From the IMG/VR virus record IMGVR_UViG_3300020436_000036, positions 1-34,889 of that record: 34,889 nucleotides of DNA. One strand, written 5' to 3'. The position numbers and the translations under genes were made by a program. Of the stretch, positions 4,284-34,675 are shown in pieces; within the stretch, counting starts at the first letter, position 1; each line of letters begins with the position of its first letter. The DNA is from a virus. The notes beneath the pieces were generated by a model. That model was not told the origin of the DNA. It did no database searches and saw nothing but the letters and a program-made list of their open reading frames with translations.

Positions 4284-4534
4284 CACAAATATCACAGCAA
4301 CCAGCAACTCTTACCTTTAATGGAAAAGATTATATAATTCAAGAGCTACCACCTGAAGCACAATCCTGTTTAGTTTATATGCAAGAAATAGATGAAGAAG
4401 TAAAGCAACTAAACAGACAGTTGCTAAAACAACAACTTGCTAGACAGGGATTTGAAGGGCTTTTAGGAGAATATATTAAAGCTCAGGAAGATGCCGTTAA
4501 AGAACAAGAGGACAACAAAAAACCCGCTAATTAG
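4280..4534 (+). CDS. Small phage protein, DUF6447-like
   Basis: An 84-residue acidic protein. It begins with a beta-type segment (TLTFNGKDYIIQELPPEAQ) and continues as a predicted helix with a heptad-like pattern (YMQEIDEEVKQLNRQLLKQQ), ending in a charged tail. This matches my recollection of small cyanophage and marine phage proteins of the DUF6447 type, of unknown function, often found beside nucleotide-metabolism genes. It overlaps nrdB by four bases (ATGA), so it is co-translated with the reductase. Its TAG stop lies inside the terminator hairpin. No catalytic motif is visible. The family assignment is from memory and moderate. Confidence 0.6.
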   Translation: MTQISQQPATLTFNGKDYIIQELPPEAQSCLVYMQEIDEEVKQLNRQLLKQQLARQGFEGLLGEYIKAQEDAVKEQEDNKKPAN

Positions 4535-4544
4535 CGGGTTTTTT
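4517..4544. terminator. Bidirectional intrinsic terminator between convergent operons
   Basis: A perfect 28-base palindrome: six A, then CCCGCTAA, then TTAGCGGG, then six T. It forms a GC-containing stem with an A tract on one side and a T tract on the other, so it can end transcription in both directions. It sits between the plus-strand replication operon and the minus-strand fibre operon, whose last gene ends at 4565. The stop codon of the plus-strand gene is part of the stem. Confidence 0.92.
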
Positions 4545-4564: not shown

Positions 4565-4801
4565 CTAAGTCAGTTTTGTTACTAGGTTAAGATCATAAGC
4601 TTGTTGGACTTGTGCATCTTCCCCTGTAGCAAGCGTTATACCATTTGCATTACAATGCTTCATATTTATAGCAAGTATATCTTCTTTAGCTATTCTTGCT
4701 CTATTCGTTGCTGCATTTGTAATCCAATCATCAATATCAACCATAACAGTCTCTAAAGATTTTACTTGAGTATCTGTTAGTGTAACTGTATAATCTGCCA
4801 T
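4565..4801 (-). CDS. Small conserved phage protein at the end of the fibre operon
   Basis: A 78-residue protein beginning MADYTVTLTDTQVKSLETV, followed by a mostly helical stretch (DDWITNAATNRARIAKEDIL). Very similar openings (MADYTVT.TD.Q.K.L) are found, as I recall, in small proteins beside tail genes of cyanophages and other marine phages. Function is unknown to me. A strong AAGGAG site lies seven bases before the ATG. It is the last gene of the minus-strand operon, directly before the shared terminator. It may be a fibre-associated factor by position only. Confidence 0.7.
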   Translation of the reverse strand: MADYTVTLTDTQVKSLETVMVDIDDWITNAATNRARIAKEDILAINMKHCNANGITLATGEDAQVQQAYDLNLVTKLT

Positions 4802-4813
4802 AATTTTCTCCTT

Positions 4814-6256
4814 TTATCCTATTAAAAATCCACCAAAGTGGTTTTGTATTGCTTGGGAGCCTGCCCAACCTGAACTTGTGTTTGAGTCATTTACAAATAA
4901 TGTTACAAAGTCATTTGCCGCCAAAGTAATTATCAATGAACCGTCTACCCTATGATGTACTGCATTTATTTTATGTGATATAAAATCTTTTACTGATGAA
5001 TTATTTTTTCTAAAAGACCAGCTCACTTGAGCGATGTTATTACTCGAGTCATGTGTCATAACACTTCCTGTGAAAAAGTATACACCCGCTACTGGAGCTG
5101 TAAACTTACCATTTGAAGTATCATAGTGACTTCCTACATTTGTATCAGCATGATCACAAACCCACACTTGGTCATCTGAAAGATATCCTGCATTACGAGC
5201 AACTCCAAACTTGGGCTGTTGCGGAGTTGTTAGACGCCCACCAGTATCAATATTTAGAGCGTCACTTGAACTTGCTCTGAGAGAAAGAGCATTATAAGCA
5301 CTTGCTGTATCACTATATCCTATGATGTCTGCACGACCATCTGTATTATTTACAATAACCAAACCTTCGCCATTGCTACCCTCAAACGAACCAATGTTTG
5401 TGCCTGCTGATTTGACATGAAGTGGTCTTGCAGGACTTGTAGTTCCTATGCCTACGCTGCCACCCTCGGACATATCAATAGTCATGGCAGTTATTCCAGA
5501 ACCACCGTCATTACCCTTAAAAACTAGGTCTTTATCTTGTACTTTTGCTTCTATTGCAAAGTTTGAACTAGAGTTTTCAAATACTCCAATTTCTGTAGAA
5601 CCATCTTCAAAAGCTATTTGACCACCATCTGCGTTTAGTTTAATACTTGCAGGTGAATCTAGTGTTATGTTTCCTGAAGAAGTGCCTATTGTTACTGCCG
5701 CATCACCAGTAGAAATATCATCTGCTGCTGAGCCACCACTTGATGCAGCCCATGATATATCTGTTCCATCTGAAGTTAGTACAGTACCGTTTGATCCTAA
5801 AGCCAAGGCTGCAGGATTACCTGAAGCATCACCATATATTATTTTACCTCTTGCTAAACCTGCCATTTTAGCCAAAGTAACTTGGTCATCTGCAATATGT
5901 GCTGTATCTATACTTCCATCTGCGTAATGTTCGGAGTCTATTGCATCATCTGCAATTTTTGCACCTGTAATCGCATCATTTGCTATCTTTGCTGTTGTTA
6001 CATTTAAATCTGCAATATGCTCTGTATCTATTGATTCACTTGCATAATGCTCAGAGTTGATTGTATCATCAGCAATCTTGGCACCAGTAATTGCATCTGC
6101 AGCTATCTTTGCTGTCGTTACATTAAGATCAACTATAGAAGCTGTTACTACTGCACTTGAAGCTAATTGATCTGCTCCTACTGCATCATCAGCTATTTTT
6201 GCTTGTGTTACAGCATCATCTGCTATTACGTTACTTGTTACCTTAGTTGTTGACAT
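4814..6256 (-). CDS. Tail fibre protein with C1q-like globular head
   Basis: A 480-residue repeat-rich virion protein, likely a receptor-binding fibre. Residues 1-130 are degenerate repeats of the type AKIADDAI and SIDTEHIA, including a 40-residue tandem duplication (43-82 and 83-122). The middle has the module GNDGGSGITAMTIDMSE followed by VGIGTTSPARPLHV, also found in the two fibres upstream. The last ~133 residues look like a C1q/TNF-type jelly roll: an FTAPVAGVYFFTG strand, a central SFRKNNSSV segment, ITLAANDFVTLFV, and the ending HFGGFLIG. C1q domains trimerise and bind ligands, so this is probably the adhesive tip. Unlike its two neighbours it has no S74 chaperone domain. An AAGGA site, formed by the last codons of the previous gene, precedes the ATG. 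Virion location is inference. Confidence 0.75.
   Translation of the reverse strand: MSTTKVTSNVIADDAVTQAKIADDAVGADQLASSAVVTASIVDLNVTTAKIAADAITGAKIADDTINSEHYASESIDTEHIADLNVTTAKIANDAITGAKIADDAIDSEHYADGSIDTAHIADDQVTLAKMAGLARGKIIYGDASGNPAALALGSNGTVLTSDGTDISWAASSGGSAADDISTGDAAVTIGTSSGNITLDSPASIKLNADGGQIAFEDGSTEIGVFENSSSNFAIEAKVQDKDLVFKGNDGGSGITAMTIDMSEGGSVGIGTTSPARPLHVKSAGTNIGSFEGSNGEGLVIVNNTDGRADIIGYSDTASAYNALSLRASSSDALNIDTGGRLTTPQQPKFGVARNAGYLSDDQVWVCDHADTNVGSHYDTSNGKFTAPVAGVYFFTGSVMTHDSSNNIAQVSWSFRKNNSSVKDFISHKINAVHHRVDGSLIITLAANDFVTLFVNDSNTSSGWAGSQAIQNHFGGFLIG
5891..6130 (-). repeat. 120-bp tandem duplication inside a fibre gene
   Basis: Two adjacent 120-bp units encode 40-residue copies that differ at only a few positions. 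Both contain DLNVTTAKIA, DAITGAKIADD, SEHYA and SIDT. The first copy runs 6130-6011 and the second 6010-5891 on the minus strand. The DNA copies have diverged at many third positions, so the duplication is not recent. Confidence 0.8.
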
Positions 6257-6260
6257 ATCT

Positions 6261-7685
6261 TTATCCTTCTAACGTTGCTATTCTTGCCTCTAGTTCTTGT
6301 ATTGTCTTGACCATTAATGGAACTAATTTACTATGATCTATACCTTGATACTCAGGTGCTGCTGCTTTTTTTACATCCCCGACACTTTTACCTTCGGGTA
6401 TTTCATCACCGTGCTCGTATAAAAGAGCCTCACCCATTGCATCTTTCTCACCTGATACAGCTTCAGGTACTATACTTGAAACTTCGTGTGCTAAGAAACC
6501 TTCTAATAATGTATTTGTATCATCTGCTATCCAATTAAATCTAGCAGGTTTTAGTTGTTTAAGTCTAGTAGTGGCGTCCCATGAATAATCTATATTTTCT
6601 TTTAATCTGTAATCTGATGAAGTGTTATAAGTTGTTGAACTAGCATTAGCAACGATTGTACCAACTTCTCCACCACCAACTGTTCTTTCAAAAGCTAAAG
6701 CTTTATAACTAGATCCGACTTCTCCAACAAAAGTAGCATGAGCATTAATTGAACCACTACCATTATATGCTTGTCTTCCATTGGCATCTATTTTCAATCT
6801 TACTACATTATTAACTAAGAATTCAAAAAAGTTTGTTGATTGTTGATAGCTTATTCTTCCTTTAGCAGTAGTACCACCATCATTAAAAGCTATATTACCT
6901 TGATGAGTTGTTCCTGATTGAATTGTAATGCCGTCATTGTCGTTAGCATCACCTACTATTAATTTTTCTGCAAATGTATACGCTGATGTGGATGTTCCTA
7001 TTCTTACGTCGCCATTGTTCTTCAAAGTCATTACTGCATCAGCATCAGTAGCACTAGTTTGATCGGCAGCACTATTTAAACAGAAAAGCATATCTCCTCT
7101 TGCATAGCTTACTGCTATGTCTTTGAATAGAATTGCCGCCTTAGTATTTGATGACTCTCCTGCTAGTCCTATACCATGATAATTTGCAGAATTATTAGTA
7201 GCACCTTCAATCCTCAAAGAGTAAGCATCATCAGTTGATGTTTTTATATGCAGGGGAGCAGTTGGACCTGCAGTTCCGATTCCAACTTTTTCATTAAAAA
7301 TTGCCGCACCTGCATCTGACATATCAAGTGTAAGCGCAGTTATAGTGCTACCTCCATCATTGCCTTGAAAAACAATATCCTCATCTTGAGCAGTAGTGCT
7401 TATATTTAGATCGTTATTTGCACTTGAAAAATTACCAAAGACTGTGCCTCCATCTTTCAAATTTATATCACCGCCATCTGCATCAAGAATAATATCTCCT
7501 GCTACATCTAAAGTTAAATCTCCACTAGATAAATCAATTTCTGTACCACTTATAGTTAAATTGCCTTTTACTATATTTCCTGCAAACGTAGAGTTTTCAG
7601 AACTATCAATAGTTATAGCAGTTGCATTCGAGCTATCTACAATTCCCGGAGTGCTTGAGAGTTCTACTGGTATTTTTGTTGTCAT
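6261..7685 (-). CDS. Tail fibre protein with C-terminal S74 chaperone domain (second copy)
   Basis: A 474-residue fibre protein. The body is glycine/serine/aspartate-rich beta repeat (DIILDADGGDINLKDGG, GNDGGSTITALTLD). The last ~120 residues are a peptidase S74 intramolecular chaperone, with the autocleavage motif SSDYRLKENI (catalytic Ser and the following Lys), LKPARFNWI, and GFLAHEVSSIVPEAVSG. A C-terminal coiled helix LVPLMVKTIQELEARIATLEG closes the domain. These domains trimerise the fibre, then cut themselves off. Compared with the upstream paralogue it has an insert (YEHGDEIPEGKSVGDVKKAAA) before the final helix. The last codons, GAA GGA TAA, provide the ribosome binding site of the next gene. 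Family assignment of the C-terminus is strong; fibre function is inferred from it. Confidence 0.88.
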   Translation of the reverse strand: MTTKIPVELSSTPGIVDSSNATAITIDSSENSTFAGNIVKGNLTISGTEIDLSSGDLTLDVAGDIILDADGGDINLKDGGTVFGNFSSANNDLNISTTAQDEDIVFQGNDGGSTITALTLDMSDAGAAIFNEKVGIGTAGPTAPLHIKTSTDDAYSLRIEGATNNSANYHGIGLAGESSNTKAAILFKDIAVSYARGDMLFCLNSAADQTSATDADAVMTLKNNGDVRIGTSTSAYTFAEKLIVGDANDNDGITIQSGTTHQGNIAFNDGGTTAKGRISYQQSTNFFEFLVNNVVRLKIDANGRQAYNGSGSINAHATFVGEVGSSYKALAFERTVGGGEVGTIVANASSTTYNTSSDYRLKENIDYSWDATTRLKQLKPARFNWIADDTNTLLEGFLAHEVSSIVPEAVSGEKDAMGEALLYEHGDEIPEGKSVGDVKKAAAPEYQGIDHSKLVPLMVKTIQELEARIATLEG

Positions 7686-7688
7686 ATC

Positions 7689-10487
7689 TTATCCTTCTAG
7701 CGTTGCTATTCTTTCTTCGAGTTCTTGAATTGTTTTCACAAGTAATGGTATTAGTTTACTTTGGTCTATGCCCTGCATTTCGTCTCCATCTTTTTCGCCT
7801 GTAATTGCTTCAGGTACAACACTTTGTACTTCATGTGCCAAGAACCCATCTACTAATGTATTTGTTTCGTCTACTATCCAATTAAATCTTTTTGGTTTGA
7901 GTTGTTTAAGTCTTGTAGTCGCATTTGTCATATCAGTTACATTTTCTTTTAGACGATAATCTGAATTATGAGTAAAACCTGTTGTTGAACTAGTAATTGT
8001 TATAGTTCCAACTCTTGTTCCACTTGAATTTAAAAAAGCTATACCTTGTCTTTGAGAACTACTGGAGGCATCTGTATTTTTAATAATCATGTTGGCTTCA
8101 CCGCCCTCTAGATATAAATTTTTTGTCGTACTAGCATCACCATTTTCGGGTGAACTATCTCCAATAGCGAGAACGCCATCATACATAAGACGCGCTTTTT
8201 CAGCCAGGGTGCCGTTGTTGCTTGTATGGAAAATCATATCTCCATAGGCATTAGCACCACCTGCAATCTGACGACCTTCTAATTTTGTTAATTTACCTTG
8301 TCCTGATTCAAAAAACAGATTTACTCTTGAAGGGTTATTGTCAACTGAACTTTTTAAAGTTAAATGCTCATATGTATCTGAGTTTGTATCTCCTGTTATG
8401 AAAGAACTTCCGTTAGAATTGAAAGCTATCTTGGCAACTCCTCCATTTTCAATTTGGAAATATCCAGTATCTACACCTGTGCCACTACTGGCAGCGGCAC
8501 CCATAAATATCAGTCTTTCATCATTACTATGTATTGCTACACCATTTGTAGAGCCTTCTGTGTAAAACGTAAAATCTCGAGCTTGAGTTCCTACTGCTCC
8601 TACACCACCTGCTGCCCACGATGCTTTTCCTCCATTACTAATACGGTGTCTCTCTGTAGGACTATTGGCACCATCAGCAGTTGTTTTAAATACTAAAGCA
8701 CCAGGAGTATCATCAGTTCCGGGAGTTCCGTCTATTTCTGCATGTATTGTTGCTGCGTAATTACTAGTATCTGTGCCATCATCTGCAAACCAATTAATTG
8801 TACCAATAACATCATTGTCTGAAACAGAAGCTGCTGTACCTATTGAACCCCCTCTTGATTTTGAAAGTGATATTGTAGGTCCAGAAGCATCATTACTGTA
8901 CTTAAACATTTCCATGCCGGAAGTATCTGGTGTAGTTCCTGTCACCTGAAATACTCGGTGTTGTCCTAAACTAGCGTTGTGTCCAACGACAACAGCACCT
9001 TCACCACTATTAGAACCTCCATCAACAAAAAATCTATTAGCGTTCCCATTAGATTCAATTCTAAAATCTCTGTCATTACTTCCATCATTGATAACGATAC
9101 CTGTAGCATCCATTACCAGTTCTTCTGTTCCTGCTATATCAAAACGTATCTTATCTTCGTCAGAACTTTCTTCTACCTGAATGAGTGTATCCCCATCAGC
9201 ATCAATTAATTGATTAGCTGTAGTGCTTGTTGTGTTTGTTGCCGTTATGGCTTCTACAGCTACACCATTTGCAGGTGCTGTAGAGAATGTAAGTGTTGTA
9301 CCAGATATACTGTAGTTTGCTTTGCTTTGATAAACACCATCAAAGAATACTGATACGTTGTTCTCATGTACTGGTGCAACTGATAAAGTTAATGTAGTAT
9401 CAGAGCCATCTCCAGTCATTGTAGCTATTGAATTATTAGATCCACCTACAGTTGTCGTTGAATGATAGACAGTAATAACTCTACCATCAGCAGGAGCAGT
9501 CGCAAAGGTTAATGTAGTTCCTGAAACAGAATAAACATTCTGCGCTTGAAACACACCATCAACAAATACCATCAAATTATTTTCTGTATCTGGAGCTGTG
9601 CTCAATGTAAAGGTTGTATCACTTCCATCTCCTGTAAAGATGTTGGTGTCCATATTTGTACCTGAACCACCACCGATACTACCCCAAGAATCTGTATAAC
9701 CTTCAAACTTACCTGTTGTAGAATTATATCTAAAATAACCTGCCGCAGGGCTTCCGGGTCTTTGTGCTGTTGTACCTACTGGTACATGTATTGAATCTGT
9801 GTTTGCACCTAAGTCTAATGAAACATCGGGCGAAGTTTGATTTATACCAACTCTATTCGCACTTACATCTGCAAATAGAACACCACTATCTACATTAACA
9901 TCTCCTGAGAATGTCGCTGCTGCAAAGGTTGTAGGTGTAATGTTGGCTGAACCATCAAAGCTTACTCCTCCAATAGTTCTTGCATTTGCTAAAGCTGTAG
10001 CAGTAGAAGCAAGAGTAACTGTAGTCCCTGCAATAACTGAACTTAAAGCTGTGCCATTAACTGTAACTGCATCTGCTTCTAAAGTTCCATCAATATCTAC
10101 ATCACCTGATATGTCTAGTTCTGTAGCGACTATTTTATCATTAAAAGTAGCTGCACCTGCTGCACTACCATCAAGTGTTAAGAATGTGGTATCAGAACCA
10201 CCATCTGTTCCTTTGAAGATAATGTCTGAATCATTTGCTTGTGCATCTATTGTAATATTACCTGATGTGGTTGCAATAGTAACTGCTGCATCACCAGTAG
10301 AGATATCATCTGCTGCTGAGCTGCTAGCAGTTGAATCAGTAAACTCCAATATTGAGTCATCTGATTTTCTAATATACAATTTCCCAGCAACAGCTCCTAT
10401 AGCCAGTTCACCGACTGCTATATCGCTTGTTCCTGGGGCATTTGTATTAGTTGTATTACGTTTTAGTTTTATTACTTGATCAACCAC
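7689..10487 (-). CDS. Large tail fibre protein with C-terminal S74 chaperone domain (first copy)
   Basis: A 932-residue fibre. It starts with GTG, seven bases after a strong AAGGAG. The N-terminus IKLKRNTTNTNAPG...VGELAIG...KLYIR resembles that of the next protein upstream and is probably the attachment domain. The long body holds repeated beta modules, including two tandem copies of a segment MTGDGSDTTLTLSVAP / FTGDGSDTTFTLSTAP with VFVDGVFQ or VFFDGVYQ. The C-terminus is an S74 chaperone: NSDYRLKENVTD, LKPKRFNWIVDETNTLVDGF, LAHEVQSVVPEAITGEKDG and a final coiled helix. The S74 region is closely similar to that of the downstream gene, so the two arose by duplication or exchange of the chaperone. 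It is probably a receptor-binding fibre. Confidence 0.88.
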   Translation of the reverse strand: MVDQVIKLKRNTTNTNAPGTSDIAVGELAIGAVAGKLYIRKSDDSILEFTDSTASSSAADDISTGDAAVTIATTSGNITIDAQANDSDIIFKGTDGGSDTTFLTLDGSAAGAATFNDKIVATELDISGDVDIDGTLEADAVTVNGTALSSVIAGTTVTLASTATALANARTIGGVSFDGSANITPTTFAAATFSGDVNVDSGVLFADVSANRVGINQTSPDVSLDLGANTDSIHVPVGTTAQRPGSPAAGYFRYNSTTGKFEGYTDSWGSIGGGSGTNMDTNIFTGDGSDTTFTLSTAPDTENNLMVFVDGVFQAQNVYSVSGTTLTFATAPADGRVITVYHSTTTVGGSNNSIATMTGDGSDTTLTLSVAPVHENNVSVFFDGVYQSKANYSISGTTLTFSTAPANGVAVEAITATNTTSTTANQLIDADGDTLIQVEESSDEDKIRFDIAGTEELVMDATGIVINDGSNDRDFRIESNGNANRFFVDGGSNSGEGAVVVGHNASLGQHRVFQVTGTTPDTSGMEMFKYSNDASGPTISLSKSRGGSIGTAASVSDNDVIGTINWFADDGTDTSNYAATIHAEIDGTPGTDDTPGALVFKTTADGANSPTERHRISNGGKASWAAGGVGAVGTQARDFTFYTEGSTNGVAIHSNDERLIFMGAAASSGTGVDTGYFQIENGGVAKIAFNSNGSSFITGDTNSDTYEHLTLKSSVDNNPSRVNLFFESGQGKLTKLEGRQIAGGANAYGDMIFHTSNNGTLAEKARLMYDGVLAIGDSSPENGDASTTKNLYLEGGEANMIIKNTDASSSSQRQGIAFLNSSGTRVGTITITSSTTGFTHNSDYRLKENVTDMTNATTRLKQLKPKRFNWIVDETNTLVDGFLAHEVQSVVPEAITGEKDGDEMQGIDQSKLIPLLVKTIQELEERIATLEG

Positions 10488-10498
10488 GAGTTAACTCC

Positions 10499-12136
10499 TT
10501 ATGAGAAGGTTCCTCCATCTATGGATTGCATTACAAAACCTGAACCATTTGAAGTCATTACAAAACCTGATGTACTTGCTGACGTAAGGCCTGTTCCACC
10601 ACTACCTACTGCTATTGTTGTAGCATTCCAAGTACCAGTAGTTAACGTTCCTACAGCTGTTAGGTTTGTTAAACTATCAATTGCTGCTTCAAACGTATTC
10701 TCTGTAGTAGCATCTATCGCATCAACATTTTGAAGTGTTAAAGTTCCAGAGCTGTCTGAGAAAGGTGTTGAATCACCTACTGTAACACCAGTATTTCCAG
10801 TTTCAATATTCGCTTTCAAAGTACCAATAGTACCTGTGAATACACTTGAAGTATCAGTAGCATCTGGTATCATTACGAATTTTCCATCGGAATCATCAAA
10901 TCCCATGAAAGCAATTTTTGCCCCAGAGCTATTATATTTTAGTTTTAAACCTCTGTCAAGGTTATCATCAGAAGAAGAAGACCCTAATTCAAATATTGGG
11001 TCTGCAACACTTACTGTAGTTGAGTTTACAGTAGTAGTTGTACCACTAACTGTTAAGTTACCTGTAACTGTTAAATTATCTCCAACGGTTACTTCTGAAG
11101 TACTGTGACCAAGTGTTATTGCAATGCCACTTGTTTCAGTAGCAATTTTTAACCCACCTGTTGAGTTTTCAATGAAAGAATCAGTTCCATCATGATATAG
11201 TTGTAAATCGTCGCCAGTTCCTAATTTAACTTTAGCGTCATCTGGCATATCAACATGAGTAGTTGGACTAAGAACTCCAGTTACTCCTAACGTACCAGCT
11301 ATTGTAGCGTTACCAGCTATTGCAGTTGTTGAACTAGCAACTGTTGCATGCGGTGTTAATGTTATTTGTGCTACTGCGGAGCCAGAAATATCATTATTAA
11401 TTGTTAGTGTATTTCCTGTTGCATTTACAAAACTCCAATCATCACCATTATCATCAGACTCATCTGCTGATAATAGTAGTGTAGCTGATTCACCTTCTGT
11501 TGCTGTTATAGATAAAGTATCTGCTGTTACTGCAACATCTCCAGTACCGTTTGGTGCTAAAATTAGATTTCCATTTGAATTTGTAGTAGATATAGTATTA
11601 GTATTAATTGTAACATTATCTACTGCTAATTCAGTTAAAGTGCCCACTGAAGTTACATTTGATAAAGTATCAAGTGCTGACTCAAAATATGTTTCAAAGT
11701 CAGTTAATGCAACTTGTTTCATAGTTCCATTATCATTTACAACAACTCTATCTGCATCTGCTAATGTAGTAGATGTAGCTGAAGTGCCACCATCCATTAT
11801 GTTAAGCTCAGCTCCAGTTGCTGTTACTTGAGTATCAGAACCTGACGTACCTAAGTGTAAGGCTGCTGTTCTTATCTCTGAAGTTGATTTATTTGCATCT
11901 ACAATTAGTGCCGAACTTGCTGTAGTTGTACCATGAGCATGATCCATTAGATTAGTAAAGTAATTACCGCCAATTACTGTTACTGCATTTGAGTTTGCTG
12001 GGTCTCCAATAAATAGACGTTGTCCATTATTACCTTGAGTTCCAGCTCCACCTGTAAATGCTAGTTCTCCAGCATTTAACGAACCGGGTGCGGCTGTCCC
12101 AGTACTTCTTTTAATTTTAATTATATTTGTAGCCAT
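10499..12136 (-). CDS. Repeat-rich tail fibre-like structural protein
   Basis: A 545-residue protein whose N-terminus (IIKIKRSTGTAAPGSLNAGELAF...QRLFIG) matches the opening of the 932-residue fibre, suggesting a shared attachment domain. The body consists of Thr/Ser/Asn-rich beta repeats typical of marine phage fibres (NGNLILAPNGTGDV, LTVTGNLTVSGTTTTVNSTT, DDLQLYHDGTDSFIENSTGG). It has no S74 or C1q domain; it ends SGFVMQSIDGGTFS, similar to the end of the small protein just upstream. The ribosome binding site GGAGG lies in the last codons of that upstream gene, and the two genes touch without a gap. A fibre shaft or connector is the most likely role; the receptor-binding part may be carried by the next two genes. 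Confidence 0.75.
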   Translation of the reverse strand: MATNIIKIKRSTGTAAPGSLNAGELAFTGGAGTQGNNGQRLFIGDPANSNAVTVIGGNYFTNLMDHAHGTTTASSALIVDANKSTSEIRTAALHLGTSGSDTQVTATGAELNIMDGGTSATSTTLADADRVVVNDNGTMKQVALTDFETYFESALDTLSNVTSVGTLTELAVDNVTINTNTISTTNSNGNLILAPNGTGDVAVTADTLSITATEGESATLLLSADESDDNGDDWSFVNATGNTLTINNDISGSAVAQITLTPHATVASSTTAIAGNATIAGTLGVTGVLSPTTHVDMPDDAKVKLGTGDDLQLYHDGTDSFIENSTGGLKIATETSGIAITLGHSTSEVTVGDNLTVTGNLTVSGTTTTVNSTTVSVADPIFELGSSSSDDNLDRGLKLKYNSSGAKIAFMGFDDSDGKFVMIPDATDTSSVFTGTIGTLKANIETGNTGVTVGDSTPFSDSSGTLTLQNVDAIDATTENTFEAAIDSLTNLTAVGTLTTGTWNATTIAVGSGGTGLTSASTSGFVMTSNGSGFVMQSIDGGTFS

Positions 12137-12490
12137 TTAGAATGAACCTCCGTCCATTGTGAGCATCGTTTCAGTCGTGCCCCCTGCTGCGGCAATAGTT
12201 TGCCAGTTTGAATCTCTATATACTTTTAGTTCATGGTCATCTGTATCATACCATAAATCACCATTATCAACCTGCGATCCTGAAGGTGTACCTGTTGATC
12301 TAAAATCGTCTCCTGCTAGTTCATCGATAGCGTCTTGCATATTTGTAGACGACATCTTTCCAGTAGGACTATAAACAATATCAGTAGCTACCGCTGCTGA
12401 TAATGCTGTATTTATTGTTAGTGTTGTTGAGGTACCTGTTGCTGTTAAATTAGTACCAGTACCATCTGTTATTGTTAATGTAGTTGCCAT
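12137..12490 (-). CDS. Small fibre-module protein
   Basis: A 117-residue protein. The first half is Thr-rich beta sequence (TLTITDGTGTNLTATGTSTT). The second half contains SSTNMQDAIDEL and the motif NGDLWYDTDDHELKVYRDSNW, which is common in phage fibre and neck-appendage proteins. It ends TMLTMDGGSF, similar to the end of the following fibre. It starts in a TAATG overlap with the gene upstream, and its last codons supply the GGAGG of the gene downstream. Virion-associated by context; no specific role can be named. Confidence 0.7.
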   Translation of the reverse strand: MATTLTITDGTGTNLTATGTSTTLTINTALSAAVATDIVYSPTGKMSSTNMQDAIDELAGDDFRSTGTPSGSQVDNGDLWYDTDDHELKVYRDSNWQTIAAAGGTTETMLTMDGGSF

Positions 12491-12828
12491 TATCTAGTAA
12501 CCTCTCTGCTAATAGTAGCTTTACCACCCATTAGTCTTGATACGACTGCATCTCCAGAAGTAAATACCTCTAAATCATACACATACTCTCCTGCCGTAAC
12601 ACTACTTGAAGTTGCTGCGGGAAGTTTCATTAAGATTTTTCCATTTGTTGGTGTAGGAATCGTACAAGTGAAACTAAATGCTGCACTTGAGTCTTCAATA
12701 TCTGCTCTAGCTTGCGCTCGAGCCGAGTAAGTAGTTAAGTCTTTGACAGAACCATCTTCTTTTACTTCTATAGTAATGTTATAGTCTGATCCTTGGTCAA
12801 TCTCAATATTGTAGTGTGCTGCTGCCAT
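12490..12828 (-). CDS. Baseplate/fibre-associated beta-sandwich protein
   Basis: A 112-residue protein predicted to be all beta: YNIEIDQGSDYNITIEVKED, a DLTTYSARAQAR segment, GKILMKLPAATSSSVTAGEYVYDLEVF, and a terminal GGKATISREVTR. This layout, with the YVYDLE strand and final ...VTR, is typical of small phage proteins related to the N-terminal domain of BppU-type baseplate proteins and to the LtfC/Gp6 beta-sandwich families; I place it there by pattern only. It is the first gene after the cassette promoter. The AAGGAG upstream lies about 14 bases from the ATG, a longer gap than usual, so initiation may be weak. Confidence 0.65.
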   Translation of the reverse strand: MAAAHYNIEIDQGSDYNITIEVKEDGSVKDLTTYSARAQARADIEDSSAAFSFTCTIPTPTNGKILMKLPAATSSSVTAGEYVYDLEVFTSGDAVVSRLMGGKATISREVTR

Positions 12829-12855: not shown

Positions 12856-12884
12856 ATTATACTAAAATTAGGAAGCAATGTCAA
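12856..12884 (-). promoter_or_regulatory. Consensus sigma70 promoter of the fibre cassette
   Basis: On the minus strand, TTGACA (12884-12879) and TATAAT (12861-12856) are separated by exactly 17 bases. Both hexamers are perfect consensus. An A-rich stretch lies just upstream of the -35 and could act as an UP element. The site follows the terminator at 12961-12983 and precedes the first fibre-cassette gene at 12828, so it defines a new transcription unit. The intergenic stretch 12829-12989 holds this promoter, a leader of about 20 bases and that terminator, and nothing else that I can see. Confidence 0.9.
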
Positions 12885-13178: not shown

Positions 13179-13603
13179 TCTCCATACCTCTTAACTGTTA
13201 TAACTTGTGTATAATCATAGTAGTACTGTTTCTTTAATTCTACTGTAAAAGCCCCTGCTTCTTGTGCTGTTAGTGTTAATGTTGTATCAGACATAGTTCC
13301 TGCAGAAGCACCATCTAAAAAGACTTCTGTGCCTGCAGGTACGCCTGTTACATTCACAACAGCATCAAGTGCTGGTGTTGTAGTACTAAAAGTTGGAGTA
13401 AATGTACTCTTTTCTACAACTCCAGTTGCATCACTATTTATATAGTATTTTTCTCCTATCGGAGTTTCTGATAAAGTTAAAGAAACGTAATCATAATTAT
13501 TATTTGATTTTTGTCCCGTTATAATAGTGCTGTCAACTCCTGCAGTTGCTGACCACATAATCTCTTTATCGCTGTTATAAAATATATGATAAGTTGCACT
13601 CAT
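13175..13603 (-). CDS. Tail-associated protein with Ig/PEGA-like C-terminal domain
   Basis: A 142-residue protein. The first ~75 residues (TYHIFYNSDKEIMWSATAG, then SNNNYDYVSLTLSETPIGEKYYIN) contain nothing I can name. The last ~60 residues form a small beta-sandwich pattern: VVNVTGVPAGTEVFLDGASAG, TTLTLTAQEAGAFTVELKK, ending VITVKR, as in PEGA or Ig-like surface domains that bind carbohydrate. Its ATG overlaps the preceding stop by four bases, and its own stop overlaps the next start. It probably sits at the tail tip with the three MANR paralogues upstream. Confidence 0.65.
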   Translation of the reverse strand: MSATYHIFYNSDKEIMWSATAGVDSTIITGQKSNNNYDYVSLTLSETPIGEKYYINSDATGVVEKSTFTPTFSTTTPALDAVVNVTGVPAGTEVFLDGASAGTMSDTTLTLTAQEAGAFTVELKKQYYYDYTQVITVKRYGE

Positions 13604-14094
13604 ATGCCTCTTCCTCCTGTAAAGTCTGGTTGGTAAAAAATAATATAGGCAATGTAAAGATCATCACCAGTGCTTGTTGTTACTCCATTTGTTATTGTTC
13701 CAGACTTATTTTTAATTATTATAGAATTAGTATTAACATGAGACCAAGTAAGTCCTGAACCTCTTTCTGTTACTGTTGCTTGACCACTCGACTCTCTTTC
13801 TCTTTCGAAGAAAGATTCACAAGGATTAAAAACAGTTGTAGCTACACCTCCTGTAATAGATGTTGACCATCTTATAGCAACTAAAGGATTATACCCTAAA
13901 TTATGTGTCTTTGTGACATCAGCACCTCCTGCAGAAATTATAAACTGTCCATAATCTTTAACTGCCCAGCCTGATCCTGTTCGTGAGTCAAAAGCCATAG
14001 GATTCGTAGTAGTTAAAACATCATCACCTGTTTTACTAACATAAAGTCCATAACCTCCTGTTGCTCTATTTCCCATTAATACTCTATTAGCCAT
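13600..14094 (-). CDS. MANR-family tail-tip protein, paralogue 3
   Basis: A 164-residue protein that begins MANRVLMGNRATGGYGLYVS and is the third of three tandem genes with this opening. The shared N-terminus is about 30 residues. The rest is unique: FIISAGGADVTKTHNLGYNPLVAIRW resembles segments of phage distal tail proteins that place a loop before GYNPL, and the end is YIAYIIFYQPDF. All three probably use the N-terminus to bind the same tail partner and carry different outer domains. Translation starts in a TAATG overlap with paralogue 2. The role is inferred from its position just after the J homologue. Confidence 0.72.
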   Translation of the reverse strand: MANRVLMGNRATGGYGLYVSKTGDDVLTTTNPMAFDSRTGSGWAVKDYGQFIISAGGADVTKTHNLGYNPLVAIRWSTSITGGVATTVFNPCESFFERERESSGQATVTERGSGLTWSHVNTNSIIIKNKSGTITNGVTTSTGDDLYIAYIIFYQPDFTGGRGI

Positions 14095-14540
14095 TAGTAA
14101 TCTGTCGCTCCTCCTCCAAGTGTTTTAAATACTGATATAGTAAATGTTGACCCTATGCCGGGCGCACTAGCTGTTGCTCCAGTTGCGCTAATACTTGAAA
14201 AATTAACAAACTCAACATTATTATTTGAAGCACTAGTCCCCAGTGCAAAACCTCCAAGTAAAAAGGGATCTGCCCCTAAATTAGTATAAGTAAGACTTGC
14301 TGTTGATCCCGCAGATATAGACACACTATTACTTACTACTGGAGCAGTGCTTCCTGTGCCGCCACTCCAAGGGACTGTTTGATGTATACCTTTTGAAACA
14401 AAGTTAGCACCTGTTTCTCCTGAGTCTGTCCAAAAAGTTAAATCATCATGGGCAGCAGTTAATACATCTGCTCCTGGTTCGGATACATATAATCCATATC
14501 CACCAGTTGCTCTATTTCCTATTAATATTCTATTTGCCAT
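14094..14540 (-). CDS. MANR-family tail-tip protein, paralogue 2
   Basis: A 148-residue protein starting MANRILIGNRATGGYGLYVS at 14540. The frame is open 14 codons further upstream, but those residues (MCIWLYDKHLLYII) lie within the end of the previous gene and precede the conserved opening, so I reject that start. The variable part is Ser/Thr/Gly-rich beta sequence (SNSVSISAGSTASLTYTNLG) ending FTISVFKTLGGGATDY. Two bases separate it from the preceding stop, and no clear Shine-Dalgarno site is seen, so it depends on translational coupling. Confidence 0.75.
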   Translation of the reverse strand: MANRILIGNRATGGYGLYVSEPGADVLTAAHDDLTFWTDSGETGANFVSKGIHQTVPWSGGTGSTAPVVSNSVSISAGSTASLTYTNLGADPFLLGGFALGTSASNNNVEFVNFSSISATGATASAPGIGSTFTISVFKTLGGGATDY

Positions 14541-14542
14541 AA

Positions 14543-15067
14543 TTATGTAAAGTAAGTGCTTGTCATATAGCCATATGCACAAGGTATTTTTAATACCACA
14601 AAGTTAATATTCGTACAAGCGTGTGCGCCCCCTGAGCCGCCCAGTGAGTTTGCTTCACCTGCTGTTCTTCTCCCTGTTGTAGGGTTATTTCCACTAGCCA
14701 TTTGATGAGGCTGTATTGTTGTAAGTGTAGTACCTAATAAATCTACTCTACTTTGGAACTCATCATCTACACTTGTAAAGGCTGCTAAAAACCCATTCCA
14801 ACTGCCTGAGTAGTCTTCCGAATGAATAACTAAAGGAATATATCCTAAACTTGGTTTTGTGCTACCTGTTGCAGTTACAAAGTTATGAGCAGAAGATAAT
14901 GAAGATTTAAAACCTCCTGCATATACTTGTCCTGTTCCTCCTGTTTTTTGAGTAGAATCAAATAGTAAATCTTTTTTATCACAGGTTAGTACATTACTAT
15001 TTGCTTTGGAGACATATAATCCATAGCCTCCATCTGATCTGTCACCTGCTAGTACTCTATTTGCCAT
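14543..15067 (-). CDS. MANR-family tail-tip protein, paralogue 1
   Basis: A 174-residue protein starting MANRVLAGDRSDGGYGLYVS, the first of the three paralogues. After the shared N-terminus come YAGGFKSSLSSAHNFVTATG, LGYIPLVIHSEDYSGSWNGF, and a Gly/Asn-rich segment (TTGRRTAGEANSLGGSGG), then a hydrophobic end NINFVVLKIPCAYGYM. LGYIPLV corresponds in position to LGYNPLV in paralogue 3, so similarity extends past the N-terminus in this pair. It begins one base after the stop of the J homologue with no obvious ribosome binding site, so the two are translationally coupled. Confidence 0.75.
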   Translation of the reverse strand: MANRVLAGDRSDGGYGLYVSKANSNVLTCDKKDLLFDSTQKTGGTGQVYAGGFKSSLSSAHNFVTATGSTKPSLGYIPLVIHSEDYSGSWNGFLAAFTSVDDEFQSRVDLLGTTLTTIQPHQMASGNNPTTGRRTAGEANSLGGSGGAHACTNINFVVLKIPCAYGYMTSTYFT

Positions 15068-15068
15068 A

Positions 15069-18000
15069 TTAGTCTGATATTACAATTCTTGTGTTTGCGT
15101 TGTCAAGTGTTATATTTCCTGAAGTTATTGTAGTGCTGCTTAACGACCAGCCTCCTACACTTCCGCCTGTTCTTGTAGCTGTATTGCCTTGAAAGCCACT
15201 ATCATTACTTAAGTCAGATATATTTTTACCTGAAATACTTATTCTTCCCGCTGCAACTGTTCCTGTTGTTATTCTTCCACCATCTATTGTTGTTGAACCA
15301 CTTGCCCCAACATCTGCTGCTTGTAGTGGTGAAACAGTTGTACTTCCGTCTGAGAAAGTACTTCCACTTGTAAAAGTTATAAGTCCACTAAATCCTATAC
15401 CCTGTTGTGAGGCTTGGAAAGTAAGGTTACTGCCACCAGAAGCTGTTCCACCTCCTGCTGTATTTTCTTCTGCTCTAAAGTATGAATACCAGTATTTATT
15501 TGAATTACCTGCTGCAAATGTTGGTGGAGTTGTTGCCCACCCACTTGTTAAATTTGTAAAAGTATTATTTGTAAGGTTATAACTGTCTGCAGAAGGAGTA
15601 CTTGGTTGACTTGATGAAGATGCTTGATGATAGACAAAGCTTACGACAGTTTGTGGTCCAGCTGACCCTGCGTTGCCTGTTGCTCCCTGTGCTCCATCAG
15701 CTCCTGCTAGTCCCGGTATGCTACCAAAGTGTTCTAGTAAATATGCACTACTTGCTGTTCTTGTAATTTTTGATACTATCGTGTCTCTTGCAAAATCAGG
15801 TTTAAAACTTTGTTTATAAGCAAACTTGCTACTAAAATCTTTTGTCACAACACCTTTTACTAATAAAGAAGTATTACTTACAACTTTATCAACATATCCA
15901 TACCATGCTGAACTATTTTCTGCATAGTCATTTGTACTACCAAGTCTAATCATATCCCCTACACCAAAGTCTGAAGTAAAGGTTGTACTAGAGCCTGTTA
16001 CAGTACTACTATTTGCTTCTGCTGTTATTGTACCAGTAACTAAACTTAATCCAAGATTACTTGCCCCTACTTCTTTCCACCATGTAAAGCTACCTGCAGT
16101 AGTTCCAGCTCCCGCATGAAATGTAGTATCTGTTTTTTGATCCAAAGCTTTCCAAGGGTCAGAAGCAGATGCACTACAATCAAAGACTGCAAATCCCACA
16201 CCATTAGAAGCACTTAGTCCAGAAAAGGATTGGGTTCTTTGAGCATGAGTTGCATCAGTCTGAGTAATATTATACTCTTGTCCCGCTGCATCTGTAAATG
16301 TATACGTAGAGTTTGCTATATTATAGGCTCCTGCACTAGTAATACTTATAGGAGAGGTCATAGTACCTCCTACTGATAAATTACCTCTTGAGGTTGCTTT
16401 GACTAATCCCGGAGCTCTAACTGTATTTTCAAAACTTGTCCATTGTGAGGTAGCTCCTGCATTATTAACAGTTCTTACTCTTACATTGTGTGTACCACCA
16501 AGTACATTCGCAACTTCAAAACTTGTTTGGCTGCCGGGAACCTCTACAGTAATAAATCTTTCAGTACGTTGATTTGCTCCAAAGGTATGCTCAAGTTCAA
16601 AATATGCTAAGTTTGGATATGGAGTAACAAAGCTAGATACTTCTGTAAAACTAACACCTGTAGCATGAGTTTTAGCTGTAGTGCCTAATGAACCTCTAAC
16701 AGCAGTTATATTATTACCACTTTTTGCAGTCCAATAGACTACTTCTTCATTTGATGTACCTTTTTCTATAATACCATAGCCTTTATCTGTTGTTGCTGCT
16801 GCCCCAAGTGTAATTGTAGTTTCTGTTTTGTCTAAGGGCTCATTTACAAAACTATTAGCTAGTACATTACTTGCTAGTCTTATTGTTCCTGGCATTTCCC
16901 ATTCGATTACAGCTTTTAGTGTTCCTGTTAAAGTTTCCCCATCATTTGTACCGTCTGTATCTGTATCTGCTGAAACTTGTTGAAGGCTAAATGTTATACT
17001 ATCAGGGCCTGGAACTGGATTTTTAATAGCTTGAGAGGTTGCTCGAGTATGATCAAATAAGACACGCTCTGTTTGAGTTGCAGGTGTTACTTTATAATCT
17101 TTTTCTACGAGGTCATACTTTTTATCATTATAAAGACCTGCAGCAATACTAAAAGTGCCTGCTTCATTTTCATCTATTCCTAATACTCTATATTGTTTTG
17201 CACTTCCTGTTACCTCTGTATCATTCTTTTGTGCTGTTAATGCCCAAATAACTTCTGCATTAGGAACTGCAGTAAACGCACTACTAACTGTTATATTACT
17301 TCCTGCTGCTATAGTGCCTGCTGAAGTACTTATTGTTTGTTTTTCTACTCGAGAATGTTCAGACCATGCAAGTATTACTTCATTATTACTATCATCTTTT
17401 ACATTAGAGGCTTTGGCATGTGTGTCTATTGCTGCACCATCTTCATCAAGCAGTACTAAGTCTCCTCTTGTATAATTAGTGCTGTTTATTGTTGCTGAAT
17501 CTTGTTCTAAATATGCTCCACCAGCAGGGTATACTAAATGTAAAGTATACGTTGTATTTGATGCAAGAGTTACTGCTCTATCCAAAGTCACTACTGTTGT
17601 GCTTACTCCTGCTTTTATTCTACCACTAAATTGAACTGAGTCAAGATAATGGTCTTGTATATTAATAATATCACCAGGCCTTATGAAGCCTGCATTCACT
17701 GAAGTAGAAAAAGAACAAACTTCTGTTTCTATTTTATCAGTTAAAAGTCTCCATTTACCAAGTCTATGCGCTTGCCCTTCACTTGTACAACCAAAAGCGG
17801 ACATTTGAGTAGAGTTTATTCTTCCTGTATCTATTATATTATCCACATCATCTACAATATGAGATTTTGCTCTAAATTGGTCTTGTGGGTCATTCCATTT
17901 TACAACTATTTGATTTGGACGAATACGCTCTGAAGTGCTTTCATAGGCAAACTCTCCATCAATAACATTACCTTGAGTAAAATTATAAATAGGCTCTTTT

Positions 18001-19922
18001 GGTCTATCTTGAACAGCAACAAGTTCGCCGTCCATCCAATATACCATGCCTCTGAATACTCCTGCTAAGTCTTTTAATACTTTGAAAGCTTCAGTTGCTT
18101 TATTAATATAAGCATTACAAGTAAAACGAGGCTCTTGTCCTCCCTTTCCATCATCAACTAATTCATCACAATATCTTGCAATCTGATACAAAGCATATTT
18201 ATCTACAAAGTTTTCAGCAACTAATTCACCAAGTCCATATCTATGGTCAGTAATAATATCATAAAATATCCATGCTGGATTATTAGTATAAACTTTATTG
18301 TGATTAACGTGTCCAACAGCAAATGTAGATTCATCTCCTCTAAAATTACCATCCCAGTCTTGGTAGGTACTTTCGGTAGAGCCATCTGATACATTTCTTT
18401 TGTATGAAGCACTTATATCATCTGTTTCATCTCTTGTAAGATAATTAGTAGGAACTTGAACTTTTTTACCTTTTATATGATAACTTCTTTTTGGTTGACC
18501 AGAAAAATCTTTAGCGTTAAAACTTACTGCTCCAATAGCAGTAAAAGGATAAGAAAACTTATCAGTAATTCTTGCTTCAACAAACTTTATAAAAGACTCA
18601 TTGAGATTATCATGATGCTCTTGTGGTTTATTAGGTTCATTGACTCTTTGAAACCTTAGCCTCCATGTATCAAAAGGTTTAAACTCCTCTACATTAAATA
18701 AATATGGCTCTTGAAAAGCTTTTTTAGTTTTATTTATAATATATCCATCGTGTAAAGAAAGAGTAGACCTGTCATTAAAAAATTCAAAACCATCTGTTCT
18801 ATTTATAATCTCATTATCTGTTGGTCCGACAAGTCTATTAGAAAAGTAACTTGAGCCGCCGTCTCGGGAATACTCAAAGTCACAGGTAAATTCTACCCAC
18901 GAATTATATTCTGTTCCTGATTTTGTACTGATGGCAAATAACTGAGGCATCTCTATTACAAAAAATATTTCATCAGTTTCGGCTGGATTTGGTATTCCAA
19001 CCTCTGAAGAAGTAACAAGATGATCACTTACACCATTGGTGCTATCAAAAGTTGCATTTTGATCCATTCGTATATTTGGAGCGTGTACAAAACTTGCAGT
19101 AGGGTTGCCACCATTTCGCATCTGTATTGGACGCTGATGCCTTGTTCCTGACCTAAAAGAGTATTGTAGGTCATTATAATTTGTTGGAGGACTTGAATTT
19201 GCGTAAGTTGTGTGATCTGTTTGAGGAGCAGTTAAAGTTGCAGCTACTCCTGAAACTGTTGTTGTTGCTGCGGTTGTTATTGTAACTTGATTACTGCCAA
19301 CATTATAAGCAGTAATTACACTTACTAAATCTATTGCCCCTGATACTCCACTTACTGTTGTTGCAATAGGTGGAGATACTTGAGCTGATGTGCCACTTGT
19401 GTATGCTGTAATATACCCCACATAAGGTCTTCCATCTTCCCCTGCTCCTTCAATTTGTATACGAGCAGCACCTTCAGCATGCATACTTGCTGATGCCATT
19501 CCTGAAGTAAACCAGCTACTTGAAGCTGTTAATGTAGTTGTCCCTGCAGTTGCACTAAAGATACTTGATCCCTGTTTTCCTGCACCTTTTATTAAAATTT
19601 TTCTAGTTCCACCGTCTACATCTGCAAAGTCTAATGCTCCTGTAGCTACCGTTACTGTTGTGCTTCCTGCACTTACAGAAGCTGTAGTATTTATTGCATT
19701 AGTCTGTTTATAAATATCTGTATCTACAAGAGGTACATCATCAAGAAAAATACTAGCTGCTCCATTTACTAGTCCCTCTATAGGGCCTTCTGTTAATGCA
19801 TCATATACTAAAGCTCGTTGTCTAGTTTCTCCGCTCATTGATCGATGAGCTGTTCCCAGTTCTGCTGCTAATTTACGTTCTGCCTCTTGTCTAGCTTTTG
19901 CCAACGCTTGTTGTGCACTCAT
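15069..19922 (-). CDS. Central tail tip protein, lambda gpJ-like (host specificity)
   Basis: A 1617-residue tail tip protein, longer than lambda J (about 1130). It forms the tip of the tail and usually determines host range. The N-terminus ALVYDALTEGPIEGLVNG and the core segments FSGQPKRSYHIKGKKVQVP (about 475-495) and NPAWIFYDIITDHRYGLGEL (about 547-567) are hallmarks of the family. They are followed by fibronectin-like regions (YPNLAYFELEHTF... HNVRVRTVNNAGATSQW). Near 1403-1420 is a short collagen-like stretch GADGAQGATGNAGSAGP. The C-terminus DGGRITTGTVAAGRISISG resembles the end of lambdoid central fibres. Large Ser/Thr-rich insertions explain the extra length. Its start overlaps the I homologue stop (TAATG). 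Assignment is strong. Confidence 0.92.
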   Translation of the reverse strand: MSAQQALAKARQEAERKLAAELGTAHRSMSGETRQRALVYDALTEGPIEGLVNGAASIFLDDVPLVDTDIYKQTNAINTTASVSAGSTTVTVATGALDFADVDGGTRKILIKGAGKQGSSIFSATAGTTTLTASSSWFTSGMASASMHAEGAARIQIEGAGEDGRPYVGYITAYTSGTSAQVSPPIATTVSGVSGAIDLVSVITAYNVGSNQVTITTAATTTVSGVAATLTAPQTDHTTYANSSPPTNYNDLQYSFRSGTRHQRPIQMRNGGNPTASFVHAPNIRMDQNATFDSTNGVSDHLVTSSEVGIPNPAETDEIFFVIEMPQLFAISTKSGTEYNSWVEFTCDFEYSRDGGSSYFSNRLVGPTDNEIINRTDGFEFFNDRSTLSLHDGYIINKTKKAFQEPYLFNVEEFKPFDTWRLRFQRVNEPNKPQEHHDNLNESFIKFVEARITDKFSYPFTAIGAVSFNAKDFSGQPKRSYHIKGKKVQVPTNYLTRDETDDISASYKRNVSDGSTESTYQDWDGNFRGDESTFAVGHVNHNKVYTNNPAWIFYDIITDHRYGLGELVAENFVDKYALYQIARYCDELVDDGKGGQEPRFTCNAYINKATEAFKVLKDLAGVFRGMVYWMDGELVAVQDRPKEPIYNFTQGNVIDGEFAYESTSERIRPNQIVVKWNDPQDQFRAKSHIVDDVDNIIDTGRINSTQMSAFGCTSEGQAHRLGKWRLLTDKIETEVCSFSTSVNAGFIRPGDIINIQDHYLDSVQFSGRIKAGVSTTVVTLDRAVTLASNTTYTLHLVYPAGGAYLEQDSATINSTNYTRGDLVLLDEDGAAIDTHAKASNVKDDSNNEVILAWSEHSRVEKQTISTSAGTIAAGSNITVSSAFTAVPNAEVIWALTAQKNDTEVTGSAKQYRVLGIDENEAGTFSIAAGLYNDKKYDLVEKDYKVTPATQTERVLFDHTRATSQAIKNPVPGPDSITFSLQQVSADTDTDGTNDGETLTGTLKAVIEWEMPGTIRLASNVLANSFVNEPLDKTETTITLGAAATTDKGYGIIEKGTSNEEVVYWTAKSGNNITAVRGSLGTTAKTHATGVSFTEVSSFVTPYPNLAYFELEHTFGANQRTERFITVEVPGSQTSFEVANVLGGTHNVRVRTVNNAGATSQWTSFENTVRAPGLVKATSRGNLSVGGTMTSPISITSAGAYNIANSTYTFTDAAGQEYNITQTDATHAQRTQSFSGLSASNGVGFAVFDCSASASDPWKALDQKTDTTFHAGAGTTAGSFTWWKEVGASNLGLSLVTGTITAEANSSTVTGSSTTFTSDFGVGDMIRLGSTNDYAENSSAWYGYVDKVVSNTSLLVKGVVTKDFSSKFAYKQSFKPDFARDTIVSKITRTASSAYLLEHFGSIPGLAGADGAQGATGNAGSAGPQTVVSFVYHQASSSSQPSTPSADSYNLTNNTFTNLTSGWATTPPTFAAGNSNKYWYSYFRAEENTAGGGTASGGSNLTFQASQQGIGFSGLITFTSGSTFSDGSTTVSPLQAADVGASGSTTIDGGRITTGTVAAGRISISGKNISDLSNDSGFQGNTATRTGGSVGGWSLSSTTITSGNITLDNANTRIVISD

Positions 19923-34646: not shown

Positions 34647-34675
34647 ATTATACTAAATTACCACGCTCATGTCAA
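34647..34675 (-). promoter_or_regulatory. Consensus sigma70 promoter of the head/tail operon
   Basis: Minus-strand TTGACA (34675-34670) and TATAAT (34652-34647) with a 17-base spacer, both perfect. The bases around it (TTCTTGACAT and AATTTAGTATAAT) closely match the fibre-cassette promoter. It lies between the terminase stop (34702) and the HNH start (34626), so transcripts can begin after terminase. The 75-base gap holds only this promoter and a leader. Confidence 0.9.

Follow-up and report, generated by a model that had tools for sequence, protein, structure and literature searches.

The DNA studied here carries three fibre genes in a row, and the row raises two questions. Two of the proteins end in a self-cleaving chaperone domain and the third in a C1q head: what assists the third fibre, and why should one phage hold all three? 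The original prediction was that the three are co-expressed, as alternative or hetero-assembled receptor-binding proteins. The stretch analysed, hereafter the window, is a 34.9-kb viral contig from IMG/VR (34,889 nucleotides), and its phage is a marine siphovirus.

The tape measure, tail and capsid genes of the window lie on the - strand and nrdA and nrdB on the + strand; a lambda-J-like hub gene (J) spans 15069-19922. Behind J, genes of 164, 162 and 174 aa (13600-15067, -) have their N-terminal 28-80 residues in common and look, from these sequences, like a small family of tandem paralogues. Relatives, given below by locus number, were collected with J, the fibre-like protein F545, each of the three fibres and the small gene o78 as queries. 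The S74 model also matches a J-like hub protein in L321 (1407-7901), which is 2164 aa long. No close isolate relative by DNA was found for window positions 1-24900; the isolate matches to this part were confined to the S74 stretch and came from four Pelagibacter phages, at 81%. A search of bacterial and archaeal genomes gave three matches, all in metagenome-assembled contigs that are probably phage, and no structured RNA was found in an Rfam scan of the window.

Two fibres end in S74 domains and one in a C1q head

All three reading frames lie on the - strand at the predicted lengths. The 932-aa fibre (7689..10487) consists of a docking-type N-terminus, a shaft and a C-terminal S74 self-cleaving chaperone; the 474-aa fibre (6261..7685) likewise ends in S74, and the 480-aa fibre (C1q480, 4814..6256) ends in a C1q head. 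Pfam assigned Peptidase_S74 (PF13884) to residues 842-895 of the first fibre (41.6 bits) and residues 357-410 of the second (31.3 bits), and C1q (PF00386) to residues 361-479 of the third (56.5 bits), bearing out the expected domains against curated cut-offs of 22 bits for Peptidase_S74 and 23.7 bits for C1q. The head of the third fibre also matched solved C1q domains in PDB, with a best E of 1.1e-17.

S74 domains are cis-acting chaperones that trimerise the fibre and then cleave themselves off, as in T5 pb1 and K1F. The SDYRLK motifs of both window fibres hold an intact Ser-Lys dyad (S842/K847 in the 932-aa protein, S357/K362 in the 474-aa protein) with the same S+5=K spacing as the dyads of T5 pb1 (S1264/K1269) and K1F (S911/K916) (PMC4690869, PMC8326128). 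Because T5 pb1 is cut at Thr1263-Ser1264 (PMC4690869, PMC8326128), the cut site anticipated before SDYRLKEN appears right by analogy, and self-cleavage is predicted at 841/842 in the 932-aa fibre and at 356/357 in the 474-aa fibre. A supposed loss of the catalytic arginine from the S74 domain of the 474-aa fibre was dropped as a candidate, because that position varies among relatives.

The docking-type N-terminus was found only in F545 and the 932-aa protein, which have the motif (I/L)K(I/L)KR...GELA in common; an attempt to sort fibres by the kind of N-terminus, using regular expressions, failed to classify most of them. In cousins, the docking-type segment of the 932-aa fibre also occurs as a stand-alone gene of 69-71 aa (L008:14211-14426, L016:14870-15079, L319:9875-10090), followed by a 111-aa gene and then by a very long fibre. 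The 932-aa and C1q fibres, first and last in the row, carry copies of an 87-nt shaft repeat, D6 (10235..10321 and 5647..5733, both -), which are 80% identical in DNA and are a possible recombination site for fusing the first fibre with the last.

The two S74 ends had been described as closely related, and an alignment of their DNA had been proposed as a way of detecting recent exchange. They align at 76% over 209 nt and at 82% over 87 nt, and beyond the S74 ends the two genes have little DNA likeness outside short shaft segments. Over alignable codons, nucleotide identity is 78%, with dN of 0.14 and dS of about 1.0; in a tree of 195 S74 domains, the two are each other's 24th and 34th nearest, and each has nearer relatives. 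The description as closely related is therefore only moderately true. With dS at about 1 and neither end the other's nearest neighbour, a duplication or exchange of recent date is ruled out. Both look as if they were drawn from a common marine pool of S74 domains.

The fibre genes belong to a larger operon

Perfect TTGACA-17-TATAAT sites number three in the window, against 0.05 expected. The putative promoter of the fibre operon (12856..12884, -) stands upstream of a 112-aa gene; a second site (10931..10959, -) lies inside F545, upstream of the 932-aa fibre, and the third (34647-34675, -) lies upstream of the head genes. The site upstream of the 112-aa gene is kept upstream of the homologous gene at 12/12 positions in L016, L020, L322 and L323 and at 11/12 in L008, L015 and L017, while the site inside F545 is conserved in the closest relatives L003 and L018 only. 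An extended sequence, AATTT(T)AGTATAAT, is common to the sites at 34647-34675 and 12856-12884 and is perhaps the phage's own late-promoter pattern.

The 112-aa gene (o112, 12490..12828, -) encodes a probable p132-like fibre-docking or collar protein, an identity that rests on its match to phrog_3304, 'L-shaped tail fiber protein assembly' (E 1.1e-17), the match to T5 p132 itself in a PDB search being weak (E 0.66). Between this gene and the fibres lies that of a small structural protein of 117 aa (12137..12490, -), which has weak matches to PHROG tail-fibre families and is 60-98% conserved in relatives. F545, a conserved fibre-like protein of 545 aa (10499..12136, -), is 99% identical in L003 and L018 and 85-87% identical in L008 and L017, and marks the upstream constant boundary of the cassette. 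The 932-, 474- and 480-aa genes and o78 are separated by gaps of 3, 4 and 12 nt, and each of the 474- and 480-aa genes draws its strong Shine-Dalgarno site, AGAAGGATAA, from the final codons and the stop codon of the S74 gene in front of it. The last gene, o78 (4565..4801, -), encodes a 78-aa helical companion of the C1q fibre. Behind it stands a terminator-like hairpin (4517..4544) with a symmetric 12-pair stem, AAAAAACCCGCTAATTAGCGGGTTTTTT, which is predicted to close the fibre operon as well as the nrd operon that converges on it.

From promoter and terminator, the unit therefore comprises the p132-like collar gene, the 117-aa gene, F545, the 932-, 474- and 480-aa fibres and o78. The short gaps, the Shine-Dalgarno sites, one conserved promoter and one strong terminator support co-expression of the three fibres. 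They do form part of one operon, as had been proposed, but that operon is larger than the three fibres and also takes in the 112-aa gene, the 117-aa gene, F545 and o78.

Fibres are swapped between near-identical phages

A sister phage (L018) is 96.3% identical to the window over 17408-10033 and 97.0% over 5461-1323. Between these collinear flanks, the 4.6-kb receptor-binding block (10033-5461) is replaced, as in a host-recognition island, and a single 632-aa fibre stands in place of three; this fibre is the start of the 932-aa fibre joined to a C1q head. From this pair one can see directly how a phage lineage changes between a set of three fibres and a single one. A second relative (L165), 98-100% identical to the window on the nrd side, has different fibres: its S74 fibre has another tail, its C1q head is a different one and its o78 has diverged. 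The stop codon of o78 is the point at which identity drops, from 93-100% to 66-88%. At the same site, a cousin (L319; J 68%, F545 87%) carries three S74 fibres. The C1q head is thus hypervariable between near-identical phages, with 79% identity in L018 and 50% in L165 between flanks of 96-100%.

The C1q head or fibre recurs in otherwise unrelated phages. In L163, the only match to the window is the C1q head with o78 (5455-4563, 89%), and in L243, likewise unrelated, the protein of the C1q fibre is 97% identical. The proposed comparison of related phages for loss or swap of fibres gave one fibre in place of three in L018 and different sets in L165 and L319. It supports the idea of 'alternative' fibres at the level of the population, in which relatives swap fibres at the window site. 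In abundant marine phages, few receptor-binding candidates vary as much as C1q-type heads.

Writing S for S74, C for C1q and o for o78 type, we counted the arrays S>S 26 times, S>S>S 6 times, S>C>o 7 times and C>o>S 9 times in marine phages. Tandem S74 rows and mixed S74/C1q rows are therefore common, and a three-fibre row is ordinary. Two or three consecutive short C1q-headed genes occur in L310, L561, L295, L475 and L492, and in some of these rows a single companion gene stands within the row or closes it.

A small helical gene follows C1q-headed genes

No match to o78 was found in Pfam, PHROGs, NCBIfam or PDB sequences, and none to its fold in PDB or BFVD, so that its membership of a known family in these collections is ruled out. 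These searches gave it no likeness in sequence or fold to a known chaperone of the downstream kind, a class that includes T4 gp38, Mu Tfa and V22 gp27. AlphaFold2, run with 57 relatives, gave a confident three-helix protein (pLDDT 96.7). The family has members of 78-105 aa, two branches and a three-helix core: the second branch, p91, matched o78 in a profile comparison (probability 84.8, E 6.5e-6) and has, in its predicted structure, the helix order of o78 plus one extra helix. A 194-aa companion at L218:11538-12122, directly behind a C1q gene, contains two copies of the o78/p91 domain. We found no description of the family in open-access papers, and this C1q companion family seems undescribed.

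Among 156 distinct family members with an upstream gene, 148 stand directly behind a C1q-headed gene, with a median gap of 18 nt and all gaps within 63 nt; the same was true of only 20/360 other small genes in these loci. None of the 156 stands directly behind an S74 gene. In independent samples, one per kind of query, a C1q gene was directly upstream in 53/59 cases for o78, 12/13 for the homologue from Limnohabitans DC33, 64/64 for p91 and 11/12 for unrelated queries, and Pfam confirmed C1q in 110/119 sampled upstream C-termini. In six of the eight exceptions, a single gene of about 128 aa intervenes, assigned to Phage_tail_APC in the one case scanned with Pfam, and it is itself preceded by a C1q gene in 5/6 of these loci; in another exception, L476, the upstream gene is C1q-like by eye.

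Loci collected with queries not of the o78 type give the linkage from the other side: 9/21 C1q genes and 0/140 S74 genes were followed by a family member (Fisher p 1.8e-9). About half of the C1q genes in these loci had no adjoining o78, which is therefore not a requirement for every C1q head; some adjoined Phage_tail_APC or XkdW-like genes instead, and several types of partner may therefore exist. Only two of 50,697 isolate records, Synechococcus phage S-SRM01 and Limnohabitans phage DC33, contain a relative of o78, in both cases behind C1q genes; p91 was found in none of these records.

Companions vary less than heads. The C1q heads form 49 clusters at 40% identity and the companions 10 clusters at 60%, as expected of a general partner. 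In L163, L164 and L166, o78 travels with the C1q head. Strict co-inheritance of o78 with its own head is nevertheless ruled out, as the two change separately in L018 (o78 97%, head 79%) and L243 (o78 85%, head 94%); the pairing is therefore not head-specific.

A probable assembly partner for C1q-headed fibres

The best overall explanation of the locus, and one that we hold to be reasonably probable, is a swappable fibre operon in which S74 domains serve as cis chaperones and o78 as partner of the C1q fibre. Positions 12884-4517 (-) would form one late transcription unit for the exchangeable host-recognition part of a lambda-J-type siphovirus tail, encoding in order a collar or docking protein, a conserved fibre and the exchangeable receptor-binding fibres. 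In the 932- and 474-aa proteins, the C-terminal S74 domain would assist trimerisation and afterwards remove itself by a cut before SDYRLK. An S74 end is absent from the C1q fibre, whose head would be a permanent tip, last strand ...GGFLIG included; o78 would aid folding or trimerisation of this fibre in trans, serving many different heads. Fibre choice would change by recombination in common shaft segments and around the C1q-o78 pair.

The protein o78 and its relatives are probably a dedicated family of assembly partners for C1q-headed phage fibres, the trans-acting counterpart of the cis-acting S74 domain. As part of the same reading, we lean towards a family that is widespread in marine phages and moves with C1q heads between unrelated phages. 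If o78 did in trans what S74 does in cis, it would be expected to follow C1q genes and never S74 genes, and one conserved companion could go with heads of 49 clusters. A separate chaperone gene behind a receptor-binding fibre is an established design (V22 gp27, PMC7289586), and o78 has the corresponding position, 12 nt behind the 480-aa gene on the same strand. We infer the function of o78; its place behind a C1q gene would suit a chaperone, a component of the tip or some small protein of the virion equally well.

The main rival to the chaperone reading is a structural partner that, unlike a transient chaperone, remains attached to the virion, perhaps as a cap or adaptor on the C1q tip. Mu Tfa and S16 gp38 are examples of such proteins at a fibre tip. 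A bound cap would have the same position behind the fibre gene and could be just as small, conserved and helical, and the joint travel of o78 and head in L163, L164 and L166 also agrees with it. We nonetheless think it unlikely, because a tip that bears specificity would hardly be a single family for 49 clusters of heads, or change more slowly than the head, as o78 does in L018.

A different rival concerns the row itself: the three proteins could be segments of one composite fibre running from proximal to distal, as in T4 gp34-gp37, with the C1q head last. The restriction of the docking-type N-terminus to F545 and the 932-aa protein, the fusion of a C1q head straight to such an N-terminus in L018 and the single operon all agree with this arrangement. 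In many unrelated phages, however, fibres commonly begin with N-termini of the 474- and 480-aa types, S74 domains usually mark the distal end of a fibre, and the three S74 fibres or C1q arrays of cousins, in many orders, suit independent fibres; we find the composite doubtful. It is improbable that the row merely stores recombining receptor-binding genes, with the products of only one or two entering the particle and the 474-aa gene as a passenger: content at the fibre site does turn over rapidly, but all three genes are intact and have good ribosome sites, and both S74 dyads are intact. That o78 merely hitch-hikes and does something else at a common insertion point, as its place at the operon end might suggest, is very improbable, given the same neighbour in 148/156 members across varied backgrounds and two branches, against 20/360 for other small genes, and its absence behind S74 genes.

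If o78 is the partner of C1q-headed fibres, it offers a short marker gene for finding C1q receptor-binding proteins in metagenomes, and its co-expression may be needed to obtain soluble heads and so to identify receptors.

Comparison with known systems

T5 pb1 offers the closest parallel for the S74 fibres, being a siphovirus fibre with a C-terminal S74 domain and the same Ser/Lys dyad and, by analogy, cut position, and the window also has a p132-like gene upstream. Unlike T5, which has one such fibre, the window has two S74 fibres, a C1q fibre and a companion gene. Runs of at least two S74-ended fibres occur, as in the window, in Prochlorococcus phage P-TIM68 and many marine IMG/VR contigs, although the P-TIM68 stretch compared contains no C1q fibre or o78.

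The metaviromic islands of pelagiphages are hypervariable host-recognition regions in which a C1q-headed protein stands beside tail fibres and these proteins vary most (PMC3909814). The window resembles them in this, but its C1q gene stands behind S74 fibres and is linked to o78, whereas the passages compared mention no companion gene. In Alteromonas phage V22, gp26 and gp27, with their homologues in A5, likewise form a module of fibre and separate downstream chaperone found across distant phages (PMC7289586, PMC10579305). V22 gp27, however, is a 21.8 kDa DUF4376 protein, whereas o78 has 78 aa, is all-helical and lacks a Pfam match, and the two papers do not mention C1q for V22 gp26, whereas the window fibre is C1q-headed.

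Two isolates come nearest to the C1q-o78 arrangement. The 'putative endosialidase' gp008 of L473 (NC_070963.1) carries C1q and has no S74 match in Pfam. The record of Limnohabitans phage DC33 (L472, PQ492659.1) is classed as Inoviridae, yet has 39 kb, long tail-fibre-like genes and an endolysin, and the label looks wrong. S-SRM01 and DC33 are phages of different types from that of the window, and their genes are annotated as hypothetical or 'endosialidase'; like the window, both S-SRM01 (gp008-gp010) and DC33 (19.3-22.2 kb of the record) have one or more C1q-headed genes directly followed by a homologue of o78, here in isolated phages.
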